Below, in pieces: positions 4,200 through 42,360 of a DNA stretch of 64,000 bases. How positions within the stretch are numbered: position 1 is the stretch's first letter; the number at the start of each line of letters is the position of its first letter. Below the pieces are notes generated by a model that was not told the DNA's origin, ran no database searches, and saw only the letters and a list, made by a program, of their open reading frames with translations. The position numbers and the translations under genes are program-made. The DNA comes from Mesodorylaimus sp. YZB2_4 (Eukaryota; Nematoda; Enoplea; Dorylaimida; Dorylaimidae): positions 1 through 64,000 of the forward strand of contig JASANH010001141.1 of NCBI GenBank assembly GCA_030248295.1. The letters run 5' to 3'.

Positions 4200-6717
4200 T
4201 TCACAAAAAAATGTAAAAGGGTGAAAGCCAACAAGAGAGCGACCACCTTTCATTTACTCCTCATCCACACACTGCCGATAGATACGCTTCCTACCAACAC
4301 ACTTAATCACCTCTAGCTCTCATTTGCATTCCCGACGCCTAACCTTTCCTTTCCTTACCTAATCGCGACCTTCGTACATATTCTTTCACTGGCCTTTCTA
4401 CCCGTGTAACCTTCTCGACTAACATACAAAAGTAACGCATGAACAAGATTAGAAGAATATACATAGCATTTACTTTTTGGGGTGGTCAAAAATTTTGTTT
4501 CCTCTCGACTTTGCATTTCCCCGTCTCCAACCAATTTTATAATAACACTTTCCCTGGGTATCAGATAAAAATTAATAAAAACGCCTTGTTGCCCAGCCTT
4601 GCTAAAAAGGTTCGTCGCATCAGAAACGTAGGCGGTAGAGCGAGAAGATGCACTGTGGGAAACGTCCTTTTTCCGTGCTGTGCGCAATGCCATTTCTGCT
4701 TGATGTAGTCAAAAACCGTTGTGACCTTTCCATGGACATTATGTACTGGGTAAAATCAACACGCCGCTGCTTATAAGTAGTTGTCATGAATGTCGTGGAG
4801 AGGTATGGAGGCGTGATCCATCCCTCTCTTCTGGAACCTTCCTCCCTCTGGTGGGCCCAGCTCGATTGCCCCTGAGTTCGGAAGGACGCCTAGCGCGGGA
4901 TTCTTCTGCTATCTTATTGTTTTCGTAATAAGATGCAGAATATTCACATTCACGCCAGGCAATCCATGGAGTCATGGCAGGCGATTTTAGCATTACATGA
5001 AAATTACAAATCACTCGTTGGGTGCTTCTGTACCCAAGGAAGGCAGGCACTATCATGGAACCGATGGCGGATTAGAGAAGTGATAATTGCACAGAGAGCA
5101 TACTGATGACCACTGGGATATAACTGGCGTTTGTTCCTGCTGCGTCTAGTTTCAATTCGTAAGGCAGCGACTCCTTGTTGTAGTATTTATGATCTCCATC
5201 TTGCTAGCCTCATTAAGAAGATTTTCACATTTTAATTTGTATTAGGGGGAAGGAAGTGCAAACTTAAAGCCATTAGGCATTGAGTTCCGGATTAGCTCGA
5301 TAGTCCACGTTTCCCGTAATTGGTTTAGCATATTGATATATTAGCGAGACGTTCGGGCAGAAAATATGCTTGGCGTAAGACACTGTACGTGGGTGAGCAC
5401 AAGTTTATCTTTACCCACGAAAACATGCTAGCTGCATACCAACGACTTGAATGACCTATGATATTTTCTTCAAAACCTTGTTATCATGTTGGGGAAAACA
5501 AGGTGAAGTTATTTTGAGTGTACTGTAGTTATTCCACCTCGTAGCTTTTCATAGCTAGGCCGGCAAGCCATCGAGTCGGATGCATGCACCGAAATTTCAG
5601 TGCCTTCTAGTACGTGAATGGAATATCAGGCATGTGGCATCCGTAAAAGGGCTGCCCTTGAATAAGAGAGGGTAGAAATTAATGAATTAAATTGAAATTA
5701 CGTGAATTCCAATCGGTTTCACGGGGAGTCACGAAGCAGGCGGGCTTGTTTGGAGTGTTGATCAAGATCGCGTGGTTCGTTTAGGCATGAGTGCCACAAG
5801 GGTGGAAATGCACTGGACGGGATGACCAAAAATCCCCTTGCTTCCTGTTCCGGATAAGACTACCCGGTTCTCTGCTGCTAGGTATATCTAGCTCCTTTCC
5901 TCTCCTCTCCACGACTTTCTTGGGCGAGCAAGGCTGATTGGTGTCGGGCTATGTTCTAAGATACGATGCAAGGGATTTCCAAACGAGGCTGTTCTCCTCT
6001 GCATTTAGCACTGACTTGCTTTCATTAGAGAGCATGTTAGCGTGCACGAGTACTATCTGTTTTGTTTCGGAATGTACAGTACACGCGCCACTATGCGGAA
6101 CGTGGAGTGCGTGTATATTTTCAAAGAAAACGGGTTATAGGGCATTATCTCCTCGTTCTGGCCTCTTTTCCTGTAGCGAGGAAGGTAGGAAATGTAAGAC
6201 CTCCTTATCGCAGCCTTGGTCCTCAGGTAATGCTGAGGTAAAAGTTTCCATCTCCGTGTATTTTTTTGCTGTTTCTCACGTAGACTTGTCTAGAAGGTTC
6301 TTTCAGCTGGCGCATGATGTGACGCAGAGCCAGGGGATGTGGCAGCAATAAGTTCCCTGAGAGCTCTGTCAGCTAGTTCTTCGATTTACGTACATCCTTG
6401 CGCATGGATAGTGCAGTGATATTTTATTGCTGGACCAGGAGTAACAGGAGCTGATTTCCGTAAATGTGTAGTTCTCTATCTTATTGTTGTGGACTCGTAG
6501 GTGGTCTCGCGAATAGGCAGTGTCCAGGGCGGTTGATGATAACAAGTGCGCTGCGCCCTGTTGTCTTTAATAGGCGTGACGCCAGCGAACTGTAGTGGAC
6601 ACCCGTTGCGTTGCTTCTCTGACGAGCACAACCTGCCTGCGCAAATATCGCTAATAAAAATGTCTTATCAGCAGCTGGCACATATCCTAGACTTCTTTCA
6701 GGCCATCTCGTCAACGA
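4200..6717. other. Gene-poor stretch
   Basis: No gene is supported. The longest frame (5938-6351, + strand) opens with GTG, has no recognisable composition or splice context, and is treated as chance. An acceptor-like pyrimidine tract ends near 6700, just before the receptor start, so a 5' untranslated exon of that gene may lie here. Confidence 0.4.
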
Positions 6718-7689
6718 ATGTACGCTCAAGCCGTTGGTAACATAGTTTTGGGATCGGTGGCCATCATCACGAATGCTGCCCTGATATGCGCCTTTCTCTC
6801 AAACAGACGACGTCGACGAGCTTACCCCTTGCTTCTAGCATTGGCGGTGGGAGATCTACTCAGCGCACTGTCATTCGTTGGCTATGGTGCCAATCGATTG
6901 CGTAAACAATTGACCAATGATTCGTTGCCTAACAGTCCGACCTTCTGCCTCTGCACTGTCTACCCCATTGTCACACCACTCAGTCAAATCTTGATCGCAT
7001 CGGTCACACTGTTTATCGCTGTCGATCGATTTCTAGGAATGCGTATGCCCCTTTTCTATTTCTGCACAATCAAACCAGTCAAATATTATCCATATTTGGT
7101 GATGATTGTGCTGGCTTCTCTGATATTCACTAGTATTGGCGTGTATCAGTACTTGACTCGATTGAAAACCATGCCGTGGGACTGTGGTACCCCGCAGTCC
7201 GTTAGCGACTCCTACAATAGCGTACGGTTCGGGGTAGCCGGTTTTGGAGGTCTGTTGGCGACGGGTATCTATTGCCTCGCAATGATACCCAGCCGATATC
7301 AATTTCGCGATTGCAGCGAGACGGAATTGAATGGCGAGGCTCGATTGACCAATGAGAAAAAGTCATCAAAGTCGTTGCCCCTCTCGTTCTTGCGCAGGCA
7401 ATCAAAAATCACCAAGGAAGTGTCATTCCTTATGCTAGCGACGTTTATCCTCTACGCCATCCCCATGTTCCAGTACTGGTTGCTGTTCGGCGTAAAACTC
7501 GAGTCGCCAATTCTATTAGCTGTTGCTCCCTACGCTGGCTGGCTCACTCTTGTTCACTCCACGCTCAATGTCATGCTCCTGTGTGCGCTTAGCCAGGATA
7601 TACGTACGATCTTGGTCAAAACTGTACTACCAGGGTTCTGTTGGAAGAAAACGGGAATGGTGATTGCTTCTGCTCCGAGCAGCAAATGA
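6718..7689 (+). CDS. Seven-transmembrane receptor, rhodopsin class, SRSX-like
   Basis: A 323-residue protein with seven hydrophobic helices in GPCR order. TM1 is about residues 6-29, TM2 about 38-62 (contains LALAVGDLLSAL), TM3 about 82-106 ending LFIAVDRFLG, TM4 near 120-142, TM5 near 170-192, TM6 near 236-260, TM7 near 265-290. The TM3 motif is DRF instead of DRY, and TM7 has HSTLNVMLL where NPxxY is expected. Both are usual for the nematode SRSX chemoreceptor-like clade, a family inference. It is intronless apart from a possible 5' leader exon, because a pyrimidine tract and AG precede the ATG by about 20 bases. The divergent relative at 59276-60201 shares the IAxDRxF motif. Ligand unknown; a sensory or peptide role at the plasma membrane is inferred. 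Confidence 0.82.
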   Translation: MYAQAVGNIVLGSVAIITNAALICAFLSNRRRRRAYPLLLALAVGDLLSALSFVGYGANRLRKQLTNDSLPNSPTFCLCTVYPIVTPLSQILIASVTLFIAVDRFLGMRMPLFYFCTIKPVKYYPYLVMIVLASLIFTSIGVYQYLTRLKTMPWDCGTPQSVSDSYNSVRFGVAGFGGLLATGIYCLAMIPSRYQFRDCSETELNGEARLTNEKKSSKSLPLSFLRRQSKITKEVSFLMLATFILYAIPMFQYWLLFGVKLESPILLAVAPYAGWLTLVHSTLNVMLLCALSQDIRTILVKTVLPGFCWKKTGMVIASAPSSK

Positions 7690-18785: not shown

Positions 18786-20395
18786 TTAATTTTTGCTACG
18801 CGCGCGTGCCATTTTGTTTCTGGTTTTCTTGTTTTTGGATTTGGCCTTGTTGTTGGCCGTATTAATTTTGTGGACTCCACTGTCCATATATTCGCATCGC
18901 TCTCCAGTATAACCGCTAGCACAACTAGAAGAAGATTTTTATAATAAAATATTCCGGGCGTTATTCCATTTGTTAGTTTTAAATACCAGTTACTTACCCG
19001 CATGAATGAGCCTTAGTATCAGGATGCATGAAGCATTTGCCACCATGTTGGCAATATTTCGATAGCCATTCTGGACAAGGGACAGTGCCGAAGCCGGGGG
19101 ACCGGATTTCTAACGATGACAGACCATATCGCTATCTACCGCAGTATGCCACGCGAGACCTTACCTATATCCTTTTGGATTCTAAAACGGTTGCGGTAGA
19201 GCTGTCCAGTGGCAAGTTTTGCGGAGCATTCATAAAGACCTTCTCTTGCCGCCTGTGCACTGCTTAGTTGTAGGTCAGAGACTTTGCTAGAATGGAAAAC
19301 CAACTGCCCATGTAAAGCGCCTCACAATGTATTTTTGCAGCACCTCACCAAACCTACCGTTTGTCGCAAAAACCAAAAAAACCTGCTTTCCACCTTTTTA
19401 AGCCCAGTCAGAAAGGGCTGCCTAAGCAGCACCTAAGTGGGCCTACACGGACACATTCACGATTTCTAGTTTAGTACACAGTATGGCAATAGCAAGTTCT
19501 AATCGCGGTGAGGACCGACAGTATCCTTACTTGGCGTTATTGGTTAATATTTTTACATCGTTTCCTTGGGAGTGTAATTCTTGCCCGTTGTAAATCCAAT
19601 ATATCCCTTCATTCTTGTCCAGTGCCTGCGCATTCACGACGCAGTGTATTTCAGCGGGCATGCCAGGTTTCACTAGCAATTTCGTCACGGCTGCGTTGGA
19701 CGTTCCTATTGAAATAGAAGAAATATAAAAGCTTTTATGTACAGCAAAACCTAAGCGGCATTACCAGAGTTAACTGCCACATCAAAGCTGGCAACTTTCG
19801 GTTCTTCATACGCGCCATATTTGCCCGTGCTGGAAGAAGCTTTAGTGTCGGCGCAGAATTGGTCGAGGGTTGTGATGGGTCGGAACGCGTGCACATTGCG
19901 CGAGAATGTGTAATTGATCTGGTTTCCTAAAGTAGACACCCCACCCCACAAACTGTTTCGGTGCAGTATAAGGTACGCAGCTGGACGCGAGGGTTCGATC
20001 TTGCTCATATTTGAAGTCGTGACTTGCGGATAGTAGCAGCCCATATTTTTGCACATTGCACTCCATCTCTCGCGCACTGATGGCGAGTCGAGATCAGCGG
20101 CGCTTGCATTGCAGACAACTTCGCCAAATGTCTCCCTTCCGCATATTGCCCTCGTCTTGCATTGACATCTGGCCACCGTCATATTGCACCCGATATTTAT
20201 AGCTGGCTCCAACCAGAGTACTAAATCCCTGTTGCCAGAGCAATGAGAGCAACTTAGTCTTGCTCGCGTTAATTGCATTTCTGTAAAATGAAATGCATAA
20301 AAATATAAAGCTGCATGTATGTGTAAGTAGGCCACGAATGACTCACCACCTACACGCAATAATAATGCAGACATAAGCACTGCGATCCTGATCAT
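18786..20395 (-). CDS. Secreted Ig-EGF growth-factor-like protein 1 (Vein/neuregulin architecture)
   Basis: Six exons join in frame on the minus strand: 20395-20347, 20280-19765, 19705-19531, 19286-19165, 19109-18998, 18924-18786 (370 codons plus stop). Residues 1-16 form a signal peptide (MIRIAVLMSALLLRVG). A novel cysteine-containing domain fills about 20-187, with GEVVCNAS and NMGCYYPQVTTSNMSK. An Ig domain follows (about 195-285; cysteines in AEIHCVV and GLYECSA, with GIYWIYNG between). An EGF domain (about 295-335) has spacing CX7CX5CX10CXCX8C and ends GYTGERCEY, the GxRC form of EGFR/ErbB ligands. The tail is very basic (KSKNKKTRNK), with no transmembrane helix, so a secreted, possibly matrix- or heparan-binding ligand is inferred. 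The order Ig then EGF is that of Drosophila Vein and neuregulin. The paralogue at 21618-23269 is transcribed away from it. Confidence 0.85.
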
Positions 20396-21617
20396 TATTG
20401 CACACTGAAAGTAGCAAAGTGCTTCCAGAAGACTCGTCAGGAAGACCACAGATAAAAGAGAACCAAGATCTATAAGGTTACTTTCCGACGTTAGCTGAAT
20501 CCATTTGCCGCCGCCTGATTAACCCGTCTGTGCTCTATTCGGCCATTCTACAGTCATCATTATGTCTGACTCTGTTGTCTACAGTGGAGCAAGCATGTTA
20601 TTCTACCTGTGCCAAGGGTTCTGCAATGCATACACAAAGATCGCAATACGCCTACGGAGAGGATTGCCTCGTATGCTGTTAAGTGTTAAACCTACAGTAG
20701 GTCATACAGTAATACAGAATAACTTAACTTATACATATATATTCTGCTGTTCTTCTCTGTTAAATAAAGATTCATTGCAACAGCACGTTTGAATGATGAT
20801 TGGTTAATTCAAAAACACCTCAACATATTTCACGCTGAATGTCGGAGCCAGTACGGTACTGAATTTTCTGTGCTTGTCTGCACCATCCTTTCTCCGATTT
20901 CAAAGCAATGCTTGAAATGCTTTTTGGAACAGCCAGCAAAACAAATGCTGGCACTGATTTATGCGCTAACTTGTTGGGGACAAATACGACTGGGGTGGGG
21001 AAAATGTCGTAAGTCGAGGTGGGGCGGGGCTTCAGGGTATACACAGTATGCTCGGACAGTATGTGGAGCGCGGGGAAAACCGATCCTCAGAATTTCAAAA
21101 AATGTGATTATGCAGTGAACTTGAATTGTGCGGGTAAGCATGAATTACTTATACCGTTATACCAACACCGCATGCATAATAATCTACGGCATGAAGGAGC
21201 AGTTAAATCTGCAGCATGTAGTGGGTAGGTACAGGTTCATCTACAGCATCTTGGCGCCTACCCGACGACATGCAAGGCTAACTTAACCTCCTCGGTGTGG
21301 GTGTACATTGCGAGTTTGGTAAATGTCTCGCAAAACTCATGGAAAGTAAGCAGAACGTGGGCGGTGGCGTATTGTGGCCTTGGTTTATGCATTGCAGAAA
21401 CCTAGGTAAGGGCTCGCATAACATAATTGGTCCACTCTTGACTATAAGGCCAGACTCGATAATGACTGCATGCCATGGGAGACAAGAAATGTACCGAGCA
21501 GAACACACATGTTTTAATCTGGCGATTATGCAATGGACTCGTCGCCAGCTAAGACAAAACAATATATTACCTTTACTGCGTCGGTGGTCTTTATTTCACC
21601 ACTTTCGGCTGCCTGTA
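20396..21617. promoter_or_regulatory. Shared divergent promoter interval of the two Ig-EGF genes
   Basis: The 1.2 kb between the two start codons contains no supported coding sequence, so both upstream regions must lie in or near it. No specific promoter element can be assigned from sequence alone; co-regulation is an inference from the head-to-head arrangement. Confidence 0.4.
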
Positions 21618-23269
21618 ATGATGATCGGGATCACAGTCTTCGTGTCTGTTTTACTATTTCATGTTGGTGGTAAGTCAGTCATGGCGTAGATAAGTTTATA
21701 TTTCTATTCTGCTTCTTTTCAGCAGAAGGGCAAGTAACGGAGGGAAGGATAAGTTGCTCTGGTTGCCGCAATAAGGATTTAGTACTTTGGTTGGAGCCAG
21801 CTAAATTTATCACATGCAATATGGCGGTGGTCAGATGTCAATGCAAGACGCGCGCCATATGCGGAAAGCAAACATTCGGAGAAGTTGTCTGCAATGCAAG
21901 CGAGTCCATTAGCTCGCCGTCACAGCGCGACACATGGAGTGAAATGTGCAAAAACAAGGGCTGCTACTATCCGCAGGTCACGACATCAAACATGAGCAAG
22001 TACCAACCCACACGTCCAGCTGCGTATCTGATACTTCACCAAAACCTTTTATGGGGTGGGGTATCTACTTTGGGAAACCAGATAAACCACAAGCACTATC
22101 GAAATATACAGGCATATCGGCCAGTCTCAACCATAGATCAATTCTGCGCAAACATTAAAGCTTCTTCCTGCACGGGCACATACGGCGCGTATGAAGAACC
22201 GAAATTTGCCAGCATTGATATGGCTGTTAGCCGAGGTATTACTGATCGTGAGCTGCTTTGCTTAGGCATTTCTTATTACAACTTTCTTTTATATTATTAT
22301 AGACGCAGACAGCAAGGGTTTGAGCAAGATTGTTATCAAGCCCGGCAAGCCAGTCATACTACAGTGCATCGTTACGGCTGACTTGTTGGACCCAAAAGAT
22401 GGAATATATTGGATATACAATGGACAAATATTAAACTCGCAGGGAGATGATGTAAAAATAATAACTGATAATGCAAAGTAAGGACACAAGTTGCCAAAAG
22501 CATTTTTTACTGACTCTTGCCAACGCAAACTTTAAAGGCTTTGAGTCTTCCATCCTTTGTTTTATTTTGCAAGACACTGTATTTTTCTATCGTAACCTAC
22601 TGCTGCCCACTCGCAATCTTGCTTCTGCCCATTTTATTATGACTAAAATTTCCGTCTTGCCTGTTCCAACTGGCTCTGCAGACATTCGAGCACGGTTGAT
22701 GAAATATTATCAGGTGAAATACTGCACTCGATAGGTAGAAACGGGTAGTCTATTCCATTGTAGCAGGGTCTCGGACGTACAGCTCAGCAGTTCACAAGCG
22801 CAAAAAGAAGGTATTTACGAATGTGCTGCGAAAGTAGCATCCGGACAACACTTCCGCTCACGTATAAAAATTGTACAGGAAACAGGTGAGTTATTTTCAT
22901 CATCACCGCATTAAAATGCATCCTCCATTTTTCATGAAGTATTCGCACCCATTGGCAAGTTTGGTGAGGTGCCTTGTGAAGCACGGTTCGCAAGATATTG
23001 CCAGCATGGTGGGCAATGCATATATAATCCGGGAACTAAAGTTTATTCGTGCATGTAAGTAATTTATCATGGCGCCAAGAAAAATATGCTCGTATCGCAT
23101 CTTTTTGAATATGAAAAATTCTTTCAGGTGTCCCAGGGACTATCACGGACAGCAATGCGAATATTTGGGTACAGATCTCCACATCATTAATGATGGAAAG
23201 AAAAATCAAAAAAAAAACAAGAACAAGAACAAGAGCAAGAGCAAGAAAACCAATAAGGCTCGCGCGTAA
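21618..23269 (+). CDS. Secreted Ig-EGF growth-factor-like protein 2 (Vein/neuregulin architecture)
   Basis: Exons 21618-21669, 21723-22235, 22303-22477, 22764-22885, 22940-23054 and 23128-23269 join in frame to 372 codons plus stop. The third and fourth exons are exactly as long (175 and 122 bases) as in the minus-strand paralogue. Order: signal peptide (MMIGITVFVSVLLFHVG); cysteine-containing N-terminal domain with GEVVCNAS and NKGCYYPQVTTSNMSK; Ig domain with VILQCIV, GIYWIYNG and GIYECAA; EGF domain with cysteine spacing 7-5-10-1-8 ending GQQCEY; and a Lys/Asn tail (KKNKNKNKSKSKK). No membrane helix is seen, so it should be secreted. The EGF loop lacks the Arg before the last Cys (QQC in place of ERC), a residue important for receptor binding in EGF and TGF-alpha, so receptor affinity could differ between the two. 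Function as an EGFR-family ligand is inferred. Confidence 0.85.
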
Positions 23270-24878: not shown

Positions 24879-26756
24879 CTAACCCACGAAATATATCAGA
24901 TCCAAAGAATATGTTCTACAGGGTGCATAGCTCGCACATTCTAAAGATGAGAACAAACTAGAGAAATAACAAGTGCTTGCCTCTCCATCGCACTCATATA
25001 TTCTTCGTATTTTTTCATAATCAAGCGGGTGACCCCTCGGGACGTAGCCTATGATATCTTGATAAGCAGGATCCTTGGTCTCGATTGTTATGTTGCCGTT
25101 TGAGGTGAAGGCAGTCTTGGCGTAATGCATAACACTTTCATAATTGTACGGAACACCATAGACACTGCTTTGCAGTCGAGTCACCTTGTTGAAATTGAAT
25201 TGTTTGCCTGAAGATATTTTTCAAAATTATGCGCTTTTACTGGTTAGGCAAGAACCGTCCCATGGGTGACCAGGGTCACTTTCAGCATCGCAATCAGCGA
25301 GCAATAAGACTCAGCATAAATCGTAATCATCATTTCATACCCGTATCACTGTGACGTGTGCCATGAAAGGATTGTCTTGGCACAGTACTTTGATTTACGT
25401 GTGCCTTCAGCAGAATTAAAAGAAGTTGGAGAAATTAAAGCTTCGTGCACTCCATAGTATCAGCTCTGAGAAAATATTGACAAAACATTAGACTCTGCAT
25501 TTTTTTCGAAAACATGTTTGGTTTTCGTCTGCTAATTTTTTCTGTCATGGTATTATGTTGTCGCCCAATGTAACTCTGAATGCACGGTGCAGTTTTAGCG
25601 CTCTTTTAAGTGCCTGGCCTGAGTAAACAGACAGACAGACCCCTGTTTTTAACTTTTAGAGGTACCGTTTCCTGCAGTACTTCCTACTTTCAGCAAAAAG
25701 TTAAAATCAATAAAAGTTTTTCTCACTTTCTTCCACATTCTCGTAATGAATAACGATAAAATTGTCCCGGTCATATCGTGATTGCTCGTGCCACAAGCCT
25801 ACTGCATGGAGTAACTCGTGCACAATGGTCTTATGGTGCCAGCAATGAGGGGCGTAGCCGCCGGTATCCAGCAGAGACAATACCTGCTCCCCGCCGACTT
25901 TGCCCACGTAAGAATAACAGCTGAAAAGTAGAGTAATCAGTTCCTTGTCATAATTTCCTATCATCCCTCTCCTCCCTCCGCCTTACCCAGTATCATTGAT
26001 GATGTTCACAAAGTTCTTTGCACTCGGGTCAGCCGTCACAAACCGGATGCATGTATTTCTTTCAATTTCTTCCATAGCTGCTATCAACATCTTCACTTTT
26101 TCAAGGTCTGAAAATGCATGGGTGGAAGAACTGAGAGGCGGAAGAAGTATCTTTGAACTCACTCCAAGCAACATTCGTTTTGTAGTGAATTCGAATCAGA
26201 CCGTCCTCTGAACGAGGCCACCGCTGATTTGGTAAAATGCCGTTTCTTAATGATAAGGCATTGGTTTGCTGCAAAGGAAATTTTATTTGTTATAGTGTTT
26301 CTTCACATTCTCCCTGACTTTTGCGACTGCTTAGTCACTTTCAGCCTGCTTACATTGACCTCACCAATTATTATTTACACCTTCCTTCATTCCATTGTAC
26401 GTTTATTGACAATTCTGAACCTATTTATACCACAGGCATCCTAATTCACCCAAACATCCATCATATGTTTTCAAAACAGCTTGTGGCGCCCATACCAACC
26501 CTGGTTTGAAGAACAGCCAGCTTACTTGAGACGTCAGAAGTATATCGCCTTCAAAGTGGTTCGACTTATGCAACTGCAATTCCAAGTTGTCTTTTAATAC
26601 GCTTCTTGCCTAGACAGAAAAAAAGTTATAACCCTGTTCGTGCGGTAGCAATCTCGGCCATTCTCGTACCTGCAAAAAGGGCAGAAGGACCACAAAAACC
26701 AAGGGGAACCTCCAGCTCGAGGTAAGCATAATGAAATTCATAAATGGAACTGTCAT
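24879..26756 (-). CDS. Astacin-family zinc metalloprotease
   Basis: Exons on the minus strand show, in order: a hydrophobic secretion signal (LTSSWRFPLVFVVLLPFLQ, exon near 26756-26670); a prodomain with FEGDILL (about 26540), the FxGD aspartate-switch motif that caps the zinc in the zymogen; the domain start (QRWP...GLIRIHY) and, after a 54-base intron, EKVKMLIAAMEEIERNTCIRF; the zinc site HELLHAVGLWHEQSRYDRD at about 25790 (HExxHxxGxxH); and YNYESVMHYAKTAF, the Met-turn with its zinc-ligand-like Tyr, at about 25130. It ends near DYEKIRRIYEC. All four family cysteines are visible. The open frame runs on to a stop at 24879; a GC-AG donor near 24978 is another possible end. No CUB, EGF or ShK module is seen, so this is a minimal secreted protease. 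Start choice: ATG 26756 or the internal ATGs at 26741 and 26729. Confidence 0.85.
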
Positions 26757-29262
26757 ATTGTGTGTCAGACCACAGCAGCCTTTATATACCAACCAAACTA
26801 ATCTTTGATGAAGTGCCAAGTAAACTTTTTCATGGGTGCGACCAACCTTGTTGGGTGCCCTGCCCTGTGTTCAAATGGGCGTAAATATCGCCAGCCACTG
26901 ATAAGGCCAACGATGAGCGAATGGGTGGGGTTATCGAGGAGATAATACGAGATCTGCGTCACTTAGCTTATCTCAGCTTTATGAAGTGGACAGAAGGCAC
27001 GACTAAAGAAAAAAGCGCACAATAATTACGGCTAAACTAAAGGTTGGCTCAGAGAGTGCATATGAGAGAAGGCTTAATCACCTTTCCGTTTTATCGCGCT
27101 TGTCCTCGGATGTTTCAACGAGCCTCCTCTTCTAACGATAAGAGCCACCCTCGACATAATGTAGATGCTCCTGTGAGGATAAGTTACACAAGGCGATGAT
27201 AGCAGGCAGGTGATATCGCCAGAGACCGCACTATGCTTGTTTGTATAAACTTCGCTATCGATCTATCTTTTTGTCTCGCATTATTCGCTTCTTCAAGAGG
27301 AGCATTGTCGTTGCAGTAGGGAACTGGCTCCATGAAAGACCGTGGTACGTCTAGAGGCACTTATCTTCGCTCAGGATCATTTCCTAGGGCGCCACAGCGT
27401 GTCCGGCCCTGCACGCTCTCTTGGACATTCAGCTTGAGCTTACCTTGTTCAGCTAGCCTTCAACGTAGGGGCTAATCTCGTGTTTCGAGAAAAGAGAGCA
27501 CGAAAACGGATAACAGCAATTTGCGATTCGATCAATTTTTGATTGCCTGACCGACAACAATTCAATTTCATGGAGCAGGTATGAACTCATTTTCTTTTCA
27601 TAACCTCGCCTTCTCAATGTCGGAAAAACTATATACTGTAGTTTCTTCTGAGTCGGGTTAGAATTAGTACAGGGACGTAAGGTGCACTGTTCCGTCAGTG
27701 GTCCATAGGCTTACATAATTTCTCCCGCGAGGACCAAAGAAGTAGTGGGTTCACATTTTCTGGCGCACGTCTCGATTACGACTACTTTAGCAGCTAAAAG
27801 ATTCAACCACTCCAAGTCGGCGCCATATCTTGCGCCGAGCTCGAACCACTCGTCAGAGAGAAACATTTCATGCGGTTACCGTATTAGTCGAACCTGTTTC
27901 ATAATACACCTCCTCCCTGTCTGCTCACGGGCTGACGTGAAAAATGTCCCCAATTGGGTCTTCGACATCAGTTTTTGTTGACAGTTGGAATTAGCAATCC
28001 TCGCAATAGCCGTCAATTGCCTTCTATCCTGCGTTCCCCGCTTCCCCACATAACGTCACGTTTCGCCCTTCTAAAAAGTGTGCGTCAAATGTTGGTTTCG
28101 AACTAGTGCAGTTTCTTTTTGTATGCAAGAACTAGATACTACTGTACGTCAGCCTAGGGTCCAACTTTTTCGATGTCGGATTATGATTCTTAGAACATGT
28201 TCGTATTCTTCTGCCTTTTTTCGACTGTTCGGAGACGATCCCGAAAAACATCGCCTGCTCAAATTTCAGTCCTAGTTTTTGAAAAGGAGAAAACTGGCCT
28301 CATCTGGGAAATCTGTGGGCGAACGAGGCTTATTTAGACGCTCCATTGCCCAGTCAGGGGGTGTTTTCCGAGTATAATTGGAATGAGACACAATAATGAA
28401 GCAGAAAACAAGGCCAACCGCTGGAAAAGTGCGTCATTAGTGACTATGTCAACTCATCGTGTCAAAATCGTCGCCCATTAAGTAAGCTAATTATTTCTTC
28501 GTTCTACGAGTGCAGCACGAGAAGCCCACGCTTTGCTTCCATGTGATAGGCATAAGTACTTTATAAGCCTCTAACGTAAAATCATTTAGGCGCCATTCGT
28601 TAGCCAGTTTTTCTTGTTCATTTTTCATTTTCTTGTGAACATTTTGGTGTTGGCTGGCATTCCCGCTGAGAACCATCTTGACGATTCTAGCTCTCCTGCT
28701 CGCTGGGCCGCATGTCGTCTCCAAGGAGGCCTACTGGGCTGGCCATAAATTTATTTTTCAATAGCTTCCTGGGCGTGCAGACCAGTACTCTTTTATGACA
28801 GTCTTCGAGAGCAATGGTCAGCATCGATATTCCCCATCTGCGACCGGTCTCCTTTTCAGCTTCTTTGCGACAAGTTTACGTCACTGAGAGGATATGAAGG
28901 CCTAAAATAGTATTATTGGTCAGAAGTACATCCCTGTTTTGGTTAATAGCTAGTATGCGGGCGAGGGTTTGATGATGGAATGTCCAGCTCGTGAAAGGTG
29001 CGTTTTCTAGTTTTAGGATAAAATAAATATGGTAGATTCATTTATCACAAACGTCACCCAGTAAGACCTAGGCCGGTTTACCTAGTTGGCTAGAAAGATG
29101 CAAACAGGTTGCTAATGGCTACGATGGTAGAAATGACGCGTGGCATCCTTCATCCATATCATTCTCTCTCACACATAACCCACTAGTCCAACCCAGTCCA
29201 GCCTAGGACTTGTTGGTCTTCCGTAATTCTTACCTTTATTTTCGTTTCAGGCAAGGCTTTTA
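26757..29262. other. Gene-poor stretch
   Basis: No gene is supported. Frames at 27745-27981 and 28491-28724 lack family features. A TTTCGTTTCAG acceptor at 29250 suggests that a 5' leader exon of the next receptor lies somewhere in this interval. Confidence 0.4.
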
Positions 29263-30657
29263 ATGGAAGCAACAAGCTTTCGGAAAAGCGAGTTTTGGCT
29301 TTTAGTTGGTACCAAAAATATAAACGATGTGCAACAAGATTTGGTGCCAGAAAAATTGGACAATTATAAAATTTGTTTGATCGCAGCTTATTGCACTTTA
29401 TTTATGATCGGTGTTTGTGGCAATGCTTGGGTGGCATTCATCATCGGACGACTTCTCGCAGATGGTTCTAAGCACAGAAATGGGCCAACTCGGGGCAGTC
29501 TGGTCAGCTCGAGTACCGTCTACTCGTCCACCTCATCCCATGTACCTGCTCCTAAGCCCATACAGATTTACATATTCGCACTGTGTTCTTGCGACCTGAT
29601 CGTTTTATGTTTTCTACTACTTCTCATTTTGGACTTGATTTATGGACATTGGGTTGTCCCTTCGTCCACATTTCTCTGCCAATTATACTTGGCCAGCGAA
29701 AGCTTGAACAAGTTTTGTGGACCATTCTTTCTGGTTGCACTGAGCGGGTACTGTTACGTGCGTGTGTGCAGGAACGATGCTTGCAGTGCCAACACAAATA
29801 CAGCGGCATCGCCGACTGTCAACCAGCCACTACTCAATGGTCAGCTCACTGGAAGAATTTTCCATCCATCATTCTCTTTGAGTAGAAGTTTCTTGAAGAC
29901 GCGCGCTTGTTTGATCGTCATAGCGATCTGCCTACTGTTGGTCTTTAGTCTGATCACTCCTGTCTACCTGTACGGCGATGTGCATTATTTGATCCTTCAT
30001 AATGAATCGTCCATTTTCTCAATCACTCCTAAGTGTGCTTTTCAACCGGCAGAGAATATTCTCACCGCTTTCACAATCTATAGTTGCATATGTGGCTACG
30101 TGTTGCCAGCCAGTCTATTCACATTCTTTTACGCTAGTATCATGAAAAGAGCTTTTCGGCACGCGGGGCAACGTTCGGAACAAGATCGGCGATCGTCATC
30201 GGGACTTCCTGCCGACATGCCACGACGATCGCCCAAATCGTATTTAGGGCGAGTAGTGAAAACGACATTGGGACTAGTGCTATTCTATTTGCTATGCTGG
30301 ACCCCCTATTGGATTATGGCCATCTGGCAATACACAGTCCCCCACGACGAGCAAGGGCAGACGAGCAATGCCCTGGTTGTATTAAATTATTTCGTCCATA
30401 TCCTCCCATACGTCAATTGTACTGGTTATCCGATCCTCTACACTGTCTTAAACAAAAGCATTAAAGATTCGTACCGAAGAGTCAAATTGAAGAAAGAACT
30501 GAAAAATTCGCAATTGGCTTTTATTGCACGTCAACAGAGTGATAGTAAATTGAATTCGCACACACTTAAGCCCAAGGCCAGCCGATGCGAGAGCAGGTGT
30601 AATTCATTTTTCTTTGTTGACAATGGCTCGCCGAAAATGAGAGATCATATTTTGTAG
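29263..30657 (+). CDS. Class A peptide-type G-protein-coupled receptor
   Basis: A 464-residue, single-exon receptor whose ATG lies 13 bases after a strong acceptor. TM1 contains GVCGNAWV (Asn1.50), TM2 FALCSCDLIV (Asp2.50), TM3 starts at a conserved Cys (FLCQLYLA) and ends ALSGYCYVRVCR, TM4 near 220-245, TM5 near 285-310, TM6 LFYLLCWTPYWIM (the CWxP switch), TM7 YVNCTGYPILYTVLN (an NPxxY variant). The C-terminus is about 65 residues long and basic. CWTPYW and the overall look fit neuropeptide receptors of the somatostatin/allatostatin/FMRFamide-like kind; that grouping is family inference. Unusual: the DRY motif is replaced by a YVR sequence, and the loop before TM2 is long and Ser-rich (about 65-95). 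Coupling may be altered or constitutive. Confidence 0.85.
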   Translation: MEATSFRKSEFWLLVGTKNINDVQQDLVPEKLDNYKICLIAAYCTLFMIGVCGNAWVAFIIGRLLADGSKHRNGPTRGSLVSSSTVYSSTSSHVPAPKPIQIYIFALCSCDLIVLCFLLLLILDLIYGHWVVPSSTFLCQLYLASESLNKFCGPFFLVALSGYCYVRVCRNDACSANTNTAASPTVNQPLLNGQLTGRIFHPSFSLSRSFLKTRACLIVIAICLLLVFSLITPVYLYGDVHYLILHNESSIFSITPKCAFQPAENILTAFTIYSCICGYVLPASLFTFFYASIMKRAFRHAGQRSEQDRRSSSGLPADMPRRSPKSYLGRVVKTTLGLVLFYLLCWTPYWIMAIWQYTVPHDEQGQTSNALVVLNYFVHILPYVNCTGYPILYTVLNKSIKDSYRRVKLKKELKNSQLAFIARQQSDSKLNSHTLKPKASRCESRCNSFFFVDNGSPKMRDHIL

Positions 30658-37158: not shown

Positions 37159-40100
37159 CTATTCATTCCCAATGTTCAACGTGGATTCGCCGCTCAAAGT
37201 CGAGATTGACCCGTCAGAAATACTCGCCGACAATGCAGATGCGCCACTCAAATTCGCGATTGAGCTCTGCGTGCTCAATCCACCAACACTACTCATACCC
37301 GACATGTCCATACTGATACCCGACGACGACGGCGTTGCGCTACAACGGTCGCATTCAATTATTCCTGAACTGCCGTATTGGATGCGGTGTGCAGGGCAAG
37401 CGAACCTCGTGCATTGATCACATCGAACTTTTCCGGTTTTTCGGCATCCTTTGACAACTTGACAAAGTTTTCTTCCAAAATCGCGCGGCCGCCCGGCGGA
37501 CGTCGACGTATCAGCATTTTGTAACAACGATCTTTTTACGGTTGATGAGCGAGGACGCTGAGGCGGCTCGATTGCTCGTTTGAGAGCCGACGTTGACACA
37601 GAGTGATCAAGCCGGCCTTTGCGTTTTCTTTCGAACAAACGCAAAGCCAACTGCAATCGCATCACTTTCTTTTGACGTGGCAGGTTCGTCTCGCGACATC
37701 GACGACGCTGCTGGCGCGTCATACGAATCGCCAGGTTGTCCAAAAATTTGCGCCGAAAATGCACGTCCGCCGCCTCGCCAGGATTCGCTAACCGATAGGC
37801 AATGTAGGCTTGGATCGCAGCCACATCCACAACCCAGAAGAAAATGCGCATGGGCCAACGATGGCAGGTTCGTTTCGTCGAGAACGACTTGACCAATTGA
37901 TCGAGCAAGTCGACGCCAAATTTTTTGCTGTTGTAATACAGAACAGCTTCGGGCTTCCCATCTTTCACAGCAACCATCGGCTTGTGATGCAGCGTCGTAA
38001 TCAGGTACACGGGAGGTTTGTTGGCCGCTGGTTCATATTTCACCAAAGTCACTTTTTCGCTGTGCAGAAACCCGGCCATACCTGTTGCCGCTTGTTCTTT
38101 TTCCACCACTTTATTCACCGTCTTTTCGATTCCCGTTAGGCGCGTCTTCGACTTCTTCGTCTTTTTCGACTCCTTCGACTCCTTCGACGAATTTTTCGGA
38201 TGAAGGCTAACCGCGGCGAATTCTTTCAGTATGCCTTTTCGACTAGCTTGAGTCGTTCCAACGAAGTCCAAACCCATTCGATCCAGCGCGTCCATCAGTT
38301 GACACGACGTATAGTAACGATCAGTGACTACGCATCATGCAGTCTTGGCGTAGGGTTTGACACAGTCGAGAACGACTCGCGTATTTTGACCACTTTCGCG
38401 CTGTTCTCCTTCCATACCGACATCAAAAATCGCGTTGAGCATAGCTCCCGATGGCGCATCGCACGCCGTAAAAAACTTCAGACCATATCTGCAAGAAAAA
38501 CCGTTTCAGTTTTGAAAGTAAGCTAGCAGATTTTGCAGATTATCTATATATTGCAGGTTTTGAGGTGCGCACATACAAAAGATGACTTACTTGTCCGGCT
38601 TGTTCGGCAAATACTGAACAAATCCTGCACGACCCTTGAAGGACAGCAAACTTTCATCGACAGTTATGGTGTTTGAAGGAATAATGCCCTTCCGACAATT
38701 CGCGAATATCGGGTCGATGAATTCTTGAATTTTTCTTCGTTTTTTTCTGCGCTTTTTTTCCAGGCTCGACCACGCGATCGTGGAAACGGATGAAATGCAT
38801 GATGGCCATAAATCTAGGTGAAAAGTTGTCATTATCGCACAATACAGTCTGCTCATTTCCACAGGGTTGGTGCAAAAAAGTGAAGCATAATGCTCCCACA
38901 CTGTTCAATCACCCTCTAAGGACAGGACAGAAATTTGAATAATTTACCTGTCCCGCGTAAATGACTGCAGAACGAGCAAATGCGCCGTGCGTCCGTTATG
39001 TCCAAAAATATCCGCCGACGACTTCTTGCCCAGACGCTCGACGCCCATGTAGATCAAAATTCTGAAAAACTGAAAATAACACAATCGATTTCAACAACTA
39101 AAACCTTTGAATCTTCGCACTCTTACAGCCCATATCTCCTTGGCATCCACCGCTTTCCATTTCTTCGGCTCCGGCCCATTCCCGTTCGGGTCATTCATAA
39201 ACTTTTCGAAACGCACGTTGTAATCGTGTTCGGCGGATATGTTCGTATACTTCACCACCCTAAATGCAAGACGCATATATACGATAGGCCAAATTTGTCA
39301 TCACCAAAACGAAAACTGAAGCCACAACTCAAGCCAAATTTGGAAGTACTTGTTTCGTTGCCCCGCGATTAGGGACATGATCGTGAAAACTAAAAGCCAC
39401 TCACAAATCAATCCTGCCTTTCACCAAAAACCTGGGGGTAGACTTTTGTCCGACTCTCTCGCCTTGTAATTACTGGACACGTATAAAGCGGGTTTTTTTG
39501 AACTGCGCGCTGCTCCTATATCTGTCTGACAGTCAAACTGCAAGTAGGCACAACAAAAGGATGACACTCACATTTCGACGATGTCGGGCGTGATTATTTC
39601 CCGCATGAACGCTTCCGGATTATTGTTTCCTTCCAACTTCTTCCAATCATTTGACAAAGTTGGCAAATCGCCAAAGTCGCACGATCGAGTGGAGCCATCG
39701 GAGCGTGGAAGAACGCTCCATTTGATGTCTTTCGGCGTATTCTTGCCGTCTTTCCCAACCGCTTGAAAAGTCGCAGTATACTCCGCAGTGTTCTCGGGCA
39801 TGTGGTTGGGCTCCACTAACTCTGGCAGTGGAGGCATCTCGCCGTTCTAAATACACAGCCAAGATGCATTTGCAATAAACTGTACGAGGGGCTTATCCCT
39901 CTTACATGAAGCTTAGATCAGACCAAGCATGGACAAGGTCGGCTGGGAAATGGTGGGGAGTTGGTCCAGCCCAGGTACAATTTGATCGCTATCGCTTCCT
40001 TCCTTTTCTTTCTTGCTGCTGAACCTGGGGCGGAGAGGGGGAAAACTGAGAAGGTGAGTTCAGTGTCCCGACCGGGACAACAGGGGGACGGCCCCCCTTG

Positions 40101-40747: not shown

Positions 40748-41212
40748 AATCTAAAAAAGAAAAATCACATCAGAAAAACCGAGAACATAGCATGACTCGA
40801 CATATTTTCTCGGCATAATCCCAAAATGGCTTGCCCTAAATAGTGCTAAAGCCGTGCATCTAATCATACATCTAGGTATTTTAGCAACCAGCTACCACGG
40901 GCTAATAATCCAACATATCATGTGCACAGTGTACATTTCCTCAAAATTTTTCAAAATTTTGCGATTATGATTTCGTCAAAATAATTTTCTAAACAAAGAA
41001 TCAAGACCTCTCCCAATTTGCACATTCTCCTAGCCGGGAAACCTGCCTGGACTATACACGCCAACGAGACCCACATTAGAAAAATTCTTTATGAATAAAA
41101 AAACACAGCGTACTTCGTTCAAAATTTATTCACGAATGATAATTGTATCTTGAATATCGAAAACGTAATAATTCGAAAAAACCGCTTCAAAATCGATAAC
41201 GAAATGAATCGT
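40748..41212. other. Spacer between the inverted piggyBac copies
   Basis: AT-rich sequence with no gene. It holds the presumptive 5' flank of copy 1 and the junction at about 41212 where homology of copy 2 begins. Confidence 0.45.
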
Positions 41213-42360
41213 CGTGTCAACTGATGGACGCGCTGGATCGAATGGGTTTGGACTGCGTTGGAACGACTCAAGCTAGTCGAAAAGGCATACCGAAAGAATT
41301 CGCCACGGTTAGCCTTCATCCGAAAAATTCGTCGAAGGAGTCGAAGGAGTCGAAAAAGACGAAGAAGTCGAAGACGCGCCTAACGGGAATCGAAAAGATG
41401 GTGAATAAAGTGGTGGAAAAAGAACAAGCGGCAACAGGTATGGCCGGGTTTCTGCACAGCGAAAAAGTGACTTTGGTGAAATATGAACCAGCGGCCAACA
41501 AACCTCCCGTGTACCTGATTACGACGCTGCATCACAAGCCGATGGTTGCTGTGAAAGATGGGAAGCCCGAAGCTGTTCTGTATTACAACAGCAAAAAATT
41601 TGGCGTCGACTTGCTCGATCAATTGGTCAAGTCGTTCTCGACGAAACGAACCTGCCATCGTTGGCCCATGCGCATTTTCTTCTGGGTTGTGGATGTGGCT
41701 GCGATCCAAGCCTACATTGCCTATCGGTTAGCGAATCCTGGCGAGGCGGCGGACGTGCATTTTCGGCGCAAATTTTTGGACAACCTGGCGATTCGTATGA
41801 CGCGCCAGCAGCGTCGTCGATGTCGCGAGACGAACCTGCCACGTCAAAAGAAAGTGATGCGATTGCAGTTGGCTTTGCGTTTGTTCGAAAGAAAACGCAA
41901 AGGCCGGCTTGATCACTCTGTGTCAACGTCGGCTCTCAAACGAGCAATCGAGCCGCCTCAGCGTCCTCGCTCATCAACCGTAAAAAGATCGTTGTTACAA
42001 AATGCTGATACGTCGACGTCCGCCGGGCGGCCGCGCGATTTTGGAAGAAAACTTTGTCAAGTTGTCAAAGGATGCCGAAAAACCAGAAAAGTTCGATGTG
42101 ATCAATGCACGAGGTTCGCTTGCCCTGCACACCGCATCCAATACGGCAGTTCAGGAATAATTGAATGCTACCGTTGTAGCGCAACGCCGTCGTCGTCGGG
42201 TATCAGTATGGACATGTCGGGTATGAGTAGTGTTGGTGGATTGAGCACGCAGAGCTCAATCGCGAATTTGAGTGGCGCATCTGCATTGTCGGCGAGTATT
42301 TCTGACGGGTCAATCTCGACTTTGAGCGGCGAATCTACGTTGAACATTGGGAATGAATAG
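41213..42360 (+). pseudogene. piggyBac transposase fragment, copy 2 (inverted, 5'-truncated)
   Basis: The 378-codon frame starting MDALDRMG at 41224 is nearly identical to the last 378 codons of copy 1 on the other strand, with only a handful of substitutions (for example FAAVS to FATVS, GCRKTGK to GCRKTRK, ECDRCS to ECYRCS). It keeps the third catalytic Asp (FGVDLLDQ) and the C-terminal Cys/His domain but lacks the first two Asp residues and the N-terminus, so it cannot be an active transposase. Homology begins abruptly at about 41213 and continues through the stop into the 59-bp minisatellite. The ECYRCS change is in the Cys-rich domain but spares the Cys residues. Confidence 0.85.

Follow-up and report, generated by a model that had tools for sequence, protein, structure and literature searches.

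A divergent gene pair for probable secreted Ig-EGF ligands with an added cysteine domain in the nematode Mesodorylaimus sp. YZB2_4

Ligands of the epidermal growth factor (EGF) receptor, EGFR, share a small set of recognized features. EGFR ligands are marked by a splice site between the fourth and fifth cysteines of the EGF domain (Cys4/Cys5) and by closeness of this domain to a transmembrane domain (PMC1618406); the Cys4/Cys5 intron also serves as a marker in PMC12485627. An arginine before Cys6 is conserved in EGFR ligands and missing from tomoregulins (PMC1618406). For neuregulin-type ligands, the criteria are a transmembrane region and an immunoglobulin (Ig) domain ahead of the EGF domain, an order found in neuregulins 1 and 2 (PMC4914847). 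Drosophila Vein, a secreted Ig-EGF protein with the Cys4/Cys5 intron, is nonetheless treated as a ligand (PMC1618406) and counted with the neuregulin type all the same (PMC4914847). In C. elegans, SISS-1 and IGEG-2 are Ig-EGF ligands of EGFR that are predicted to be transmembrane and are shed, and IGEG-2 has the Cys4/Cys5 intron (PMC12485627). Here, we analyzed a stretch of 64,000 nucleotides from Mesodorylaimus sp. YZB2_4 (contig JASANH010001141.1, positions 1 to 64,000; hereafter the window), which carries two neighboring genes, A and B, each predicted to encode an Ig-EGF protein with an additional N-terminal cysteine domain.

An initial annotation, made from the letters of the window, had started from the premise that the nematode ligand LIN-3 has an EGF domain without Ig, and had proposed that a nematode Ig-EGF ligand would form an undescribed family. 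Given SISS-1 and IGEG-2, the premise is outdated and the claim of an undescribed family finds no support. The assumption of a nematode host fared better, as 133 matches to Col_cuticle_N (cuticle collagen) in the genome identify the organism as a nematode. Like SISS-1 and IGEG-2, the window genes have one Ig and one EGF domain; unlike them, judged by description, they combine a signal peptide with a basic tail and no transmembrane segment that we could find. The N-terminal cysteine domain of the window pair is described for neither SISS-1 nor IGEG-2 in the sections available to us.

We consider it probable that A and B are exon-shuffled, secreted Ig-EGF ligands of the EGFR family that were duplicated head to head. 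By descent and by their EGF features, both look like Ig-EGF ligands to which a module of an uncatalogued family has been joined, so that the signaling half would be of a known kind and the fusion new. Among the matches listed in our search of the open-access literature, we found no natural secreted nematode Ig-EGF protein with an added N-terminal domain. Nor is a comparable cysteine domain known from Vein or from the neuregulins, which are mostly transmembrane proteins with a cytoplasmic part.

Structure and EGF features of genes A and B

The gene models in Table 1 are derived from genomic DNA. They bear out two divergent genes with spliced products of the lengths first proposed, and both proteins show the same order of signal peptide, cysteine domain, Ig domain, EGF domain, and basic tail. 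The tail following the EGF domain comprises 35 residues in A (11 K/R) and 36 in B (12 K/R). The signal peptides were called from hydropathy and position alone, and that of A contains an arginine near its C-terminal end. The fourth exon of B was placed at 22764 and not at 22767 because the resulting AA/C junction is common to A and to a paralogue on contig C1 (contigs and loci are given by our working handles). The blocks upstream of the two genes match at 74% over 103 columns. An exact search for SL1 returned 0 copies, which we did not use as evidence, given that the assembly may lack repeats.

Table 1. Coordinates of genes A and B and of their parts in the window (KD19, hydropathy window).
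Feature	Position	Strand	Description
Gene A, 370 aa	18786..20395	minus	spliced model, six exons, GT-AG introns, phases 1,1,2,1,2
Gene A exons	20395-20347, 20280-19765, 19705-19531, 19286-19165, 19109-18998, 18924-18786	minus	stop included
Gene B, 372 aa	21618..23269	plus	spliced model, six exons, GT-AG introns, phases 1,1,2,1,2
Gene B exons	21618-21669, 21723-22235, 22303-22477, 22764-22885, 22940-23054, 23128-23269	plus	stop included
Signal-peptide exon, gene A	20347..20395	minus	highest KD19 window of protein at N-terminus; phase-1 end
Signal-peptide exon, gene B	21618..21669	plus	highest KD19 window of protein at N-terminus; phase-1 end
N-terminal cysteine domain, gene A	19765..20280	minus	single exon, symmetrical (phase 1 on either side), with 10 Cys
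N-terminal cysteine domain, gene B	21723..22235	plus	single exon, symmetrical (phase 1 on either side), with 11 Cys
Ig domain, gene A	19165..19705	minus	two exons, phase-2 intron between; Pfam I-set 24 bits, cut-off 23.7
Ig domain, gene B	22303..22885	plus	two exons, phase-2 intron between; Pfam I-set 27.5 bits, cut-off 23.7
EGF domain and tail, gene A	18786..19109	minus	Pfam EGF 24.5 bits, cut-off 21.5; Arg before Cys6
EGF domain and tail, gene B	22940..23269	plus	Pfam EGF 20.2 bits, cut-off 21.5; Gln before Cys6
Divergent intergenic region, 1,222 bp	20396..21617		between the start codons of A and B
Block upstream of A	20551..20652	minus	matches block upstream of B
Block upstream of B	21366..21468	plus	matches block upstream of A

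The EGF domains provide the first line of evidence for a ligand. Their cysteine spacing is exactly C-x7-C-x5-C-x10-C-x1-C-x8-C in both genes, confirming the EGFR/ErbB-ligand pattern initially noticed, and both have a phase-2 intron between Cys4 and Cys5. Cys6 is preceded by Arg in A (GERC) and by Gln in B (GQQC). The proposed Ig-EGF order was likewise recovered with Pfam, I-set lying N-terminal to EGF and above its cut-off in both proteins, and EGF scoring above the cut-off in A and slightly under it in B. We further compared both proteins with PDB, counting matches over the EGF region at E up to 0.1. For A, 26 of 32 such chains are ErbB ligands (best E 1.3e-5), the others being five Notch chains and one U-myrmeciitoxin; two further rows cover Ig only. 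For B, ErbB ligands account for 18 of 23 chains (best E 7e-4), next to two chains named EGF(+), Notch, urokinase, and U-myrmeciitoxin, while ten further rows, including the top-scoring row overall, cover Ig only. The initial annotation had named, as one of two outcomes that would refute it, best matches to non-ligand EGF proteins with no Ig-EGF ligand among the top hits; the PDB matches over the EGF region do not refute it.

A search for transmembrane segments agreed with the secreted form proposed for the pair. Neither protein has a KD19 window above 1.3 beyond the signal peptide, and the sequence up to about 2.2 kb past either stop codon, read in all coding-strand frames, contained no 21-residue stretch with a mean hydropathy (KD) of at least 1.9.

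The proteins of A and B are 61% identical over their aligned parts and 72% identical in their N-terminal domains. Nonsynonymous (dN) and synonymous (dS) divergence amount to 0.29 and 0.78 (dN/dS ~0.37), and both genes therefore look maintained by selection. For the EGF domain alone, the values are 0.37 and 1.03; by these estimates, the EGF domain of B is under purifying selection relative to that of A. Fourfold sites differ at 14 of 55 positions in the N-domain exon and at 18 of 32 in the Ig and EGF exons (Fisher p 0.006). This lower synonymous divergence of the N-domain exons hints at possible gene conversion between the inverted copies, but the numbers are small. The divergence also bears on the idea that the genes are a gene-model artefact or decaying copies. 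All ten splice junctions were indeed predicted from genomic DNA, but their phases are identical in the two copies, every intron is GT-AG, neither spliced model contains an internal stop, and dN/dS is well below one, which leaves this explanation scarcely credible. Chance is a poor explanation as well, because all six exons are common to the two copies, dN is lower than dS, and two further loci share the Ig-EGF exon structure.

Membrane-anchored relatives, receptor loci, and the proposed origin of the pair

These two loci emerged when the genome was searched with the EGF domain of B. With an E cut-off of 0.01, this query hit four loci, namely A and B themselves, C1:~270k, and C11:~852k. The latter two consist of an Ig exon pair and an EGF exon followed by a transmembrane exon, and their intron phases from Ig to the end of EGF, including the phase-2 intron between Cys4 and Cys5, are the same as in the window genes. 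Their EGF domains lie close to the transmembrane domain, as is typical of EGFR ligands. Identity to B is 36% for C1 and 34% for C11, in alignments that include the tails. The C11 gene model begins with a short leader without a signal peptide. Unlike the window genes, both paralogues offer a choice of two exons to complete the EGF domain after its first half, each running from phase 2 to phase 1 (L018:1684-2109, L024:6889-7175). The last EGF exon of B is closer to the second alternative than to the first in C11 (E 2.0e-5 versus 0.006) and in C1 (E 2.7e-5 versus 1.3e-4). The alternative second-half exons of the two paralogues resemble those that give the alpha and beta forms of NRG1. The N-terminal cysteine domain is present only in the window pair among the four loci, and genome searches with the N-domains found no match on contigs C1 and C11.

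The genome also contains two loci for EGFR-type receptors, C3:~945.8-948.4k (L046) and C119:~122-125k (L044), both with a receptor L domain and kinase motifs. Pfam GF_recep_IV scores above the cut-off at the C119 locus and below it at the C3 locus. At E up to 1e-20, the paired kinase fragments of C3 match 99 PDB sequences and those of C119 match 114, and all matches listed (the best 60 of each) are EGFR, erbB-2, or erbB-4.

These data are consistent with the following scenario for the pair as secreted ligands. The ancestor would have been a membrane-anchored Ig-EGF gene resembling the C1 and C11 genes. Its 5' end would have been exchanged at a phase-1 intron for a signal-peptide exon and the phase 1-1 cysteine-domain exon; as a phase-1 intron precedes the Ig exon in C11 and in the window genes, a swap at this point would be frame-neutral. 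The transmembrane exon would have been lost, with the basic tail in its place, and the chimeric gene would then have been duplicated head to head. Secretion would probably not need a sheddase. The products would be retained near their source by the basic tail and the Ig domain, perhaps with help from the N-terminal domain; heparan-sulphate anchoring is cited for the Ig domain of neuregulin 1 (PMC12593006). The EGF loop would act on one or both EGFR-type receptors, and on the simplest guess the N-domain binds a partner and so aims the ligand. We infer the order of these events as well as the secretion, matrix retention, and receptor activation of A and B.

The two genes need not act alike, and B may be a weaker agonist or a competitor. 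In a stricter version, which we regard as unlikely, B is a competitor with a weak or non-activating EGF domain, and the pair co-expresses an agonist (A) and an antagonist (B). The Gln of B at the position of the Arg of A would fit, since tomoregulins also lack this Arg (PMC1618406), and so would the divergent arrangement with its matching upstream blocks. However, Gln likewise takes the place of Arg in the C1 gene, in the second of its alternative EGF exons, so that loss of the Arg is not special to B, and the purifying selection on the EGF domain of B speaks against this version as well. Slightly more doubtful still is an extended form of this idea, in which exon shuffling would have produced a new type of growth factor: a divergent agonist/antagonist cassette in which the N-domain binds a partner of its own in the matrix or on the cell surface and aims the signal, while A activates and B tempers from the same promoter region.

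The receptor loci are relevant to a further alternative, in which the worm is a parasite and A and B target the EGFR of its host animal instead of its own receptors. The secreted, duplicated architecture would suit such a role, as would the presence of U-myrmeciitoxin (7r6p), which we take to be an ant venom peptide, among the EGF-region matches of both genes. But the genome has EGFR-type receptor loci of its own, C. elegans provides a documented case of Ig-EGF signaling to the receptor of the worm itself (PMC12485627), and no parasitic case of this kind appeared among the literature matches listed. We therefore rate a host-directed function as very improbable.

The N-terminal cysteine domain and its family

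The initial annotation had not recognized the N-terminal domain. This stands insofar as Pfam gave no match at E up to 1 over this region of A and B; the domain is, though, not confined to the pair. A profile run over eight genome regions gave 35 matching stretches, two of which we took as halves of one domain. A further 18 places, all beyond these regions, came from two single-domain searches, and one of the 18 reached just E 0.012. By hand tally, the family comprises about 54 copies in the genome including the window pair, a few being truncated or carrying a stop. Clusters lie on C15, C23, C41, C73, and C451, and one or two copies each on C89, C107, C154, and C320. On C23, equal-score matches recur about 15 kb apart between 278.9-285k and 292-301k (281508/296719, 282162/297373, and 282578/297789), which points to a segmental duplication within the cluster; the copy at C23 292257 holds a stop.

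Across 32 aligned N-domains, seven cysteines are invariant, and recurring motifs include a CxxC start, a C-x-C pair, a CNxS-like motif, WxxxC, and CxxxQ. Exon phases were scanned with a simple splice-site score in 30 of the 35 stretches, leaving out a truncated copy, a near-duplicate partial copy, the two halves of the split domain, and a copy with a long insert, from the alignment as well; five stretches lacked a scored donor. Of the 30 acceptors, 24 came out in phase 1, as did 20 of the 25 scored donors, and 16 of 25 exons had phase 1 on both sides. The window N-domains, each a single phase 1-1 exon, thus resemble most other members. Unlike the window pair, the other members are arranged in tandem clusters and some have long lysine-rich tails. 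In one gene of the family, L028, an upstream exon begins like a signal peptide and, as read by eye, has a phase-1 donor, although a scripted check of this exon failed.

The family has no evident counterpart in the databases searched. Over the 32 members, Pfam showed no consistent match at E up to 1: 19 families each appeared in one or two members (Elicitin in 2 of 32 and the other 18 in 1 of 32 each, with BUD31 the best at 0.004), and we dismissed these matches as chance. Eight longer family frames gave only Pfam matches with E above 0.08. The N-domain profile matched just two Ribonuclease 7 sequences in PDB (E 0.07 and 0.08), which we likewise attribute to chance. Searches for homologues outside the genome returned 0 among 2976 candidates at E up to 0.001 for A and B, and 0 among 1215 candidates at E up to 0.01 for the 32 N-domains; as the database is suspected to be poor in animals, neither result is proof of uniqueness.

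Membership in this family raises the alternative that A and B are matrix or structural proteins, whose Ig and EGF domains serve adhesion and not receptor signaling. Ig and EGF modules are generally frequent in matrix proteins, and lysine-rich tails follow the N-domain in other members too (4 of 18 frames, by eye). However, the pair has a single EGF domain with the spacing and Cys4/Cys5 intron of ErbB ligands and is homologous to two neuregulin-like membrane genes, C1 and C11, which makes a purely structural role improbable.

Several points weigh against our reading of A and B as shuffled, secreted EGFR-family ligands. The Arg that is conserved ahead of Cys6 is missing from B, whose EGF domain, at 20.2 bits, also scores just under the Pfam cut-off of 21.5. 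PDB holds many ErbB ligands, which favors matches of this kind, and most of the matches are weak. The EGF domains of A and B do not adjoin a transmembrane domain, and PMC1618406 uses such closeness as one of its two criteria for a ligand; we therefore class the pair as secreted derivatives and not as canonical NRG-type ligands. Regarding the shuffling, its direction is something we infer, the window N-domains are only remotely like the family (identity no higher than 33%, and E no better than 1.5e-6 beyond the pair itself), and the simple scoring used put 6 of the 30 acceptors and 5 of the 25 donors of N-domain exons in other phases.

Other features of the window and significance

Beside gene B, exon-like frames at 24882-25982 (-) contain an astacin-type HELLHAVGLWHEQSR motif by eye. 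At 37162-38334 (-) and 41200-42357 (+), in opposite orientation, lie two open frames that are almost the same in sequence and span 391 and 386 codons; by eye, they look like piggyBac-type transposases, and similar 59-bp tandem repeats are found nearby. Long open frames at 6691-7686 (+) and 29227-30654 (+) resemble seven-transmembrane receptors, again by eye. Scans of the window with Rfam (gathering cut-offs) and for tRNA gave no match.

Nematode Ig-EGF ligands have become a topic only recently with SISS-1 and IGEG-2, and the role of their non-EGF parts is a question in those papers. The genome studied here has two EGFR-type receptor loci, compared to a single EGFR in C. elegans (PMC12485627), and the module added to A and B marks a sizeable uncatalogued domain family. 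This lineage seems to have rebuilt an Ig-EGF ligand by losing the anchor and gaining a new module. As membrane-anchored relatives and two receptor loci are present in the same genome, it becomes testable what anchoring and added modules contribute.

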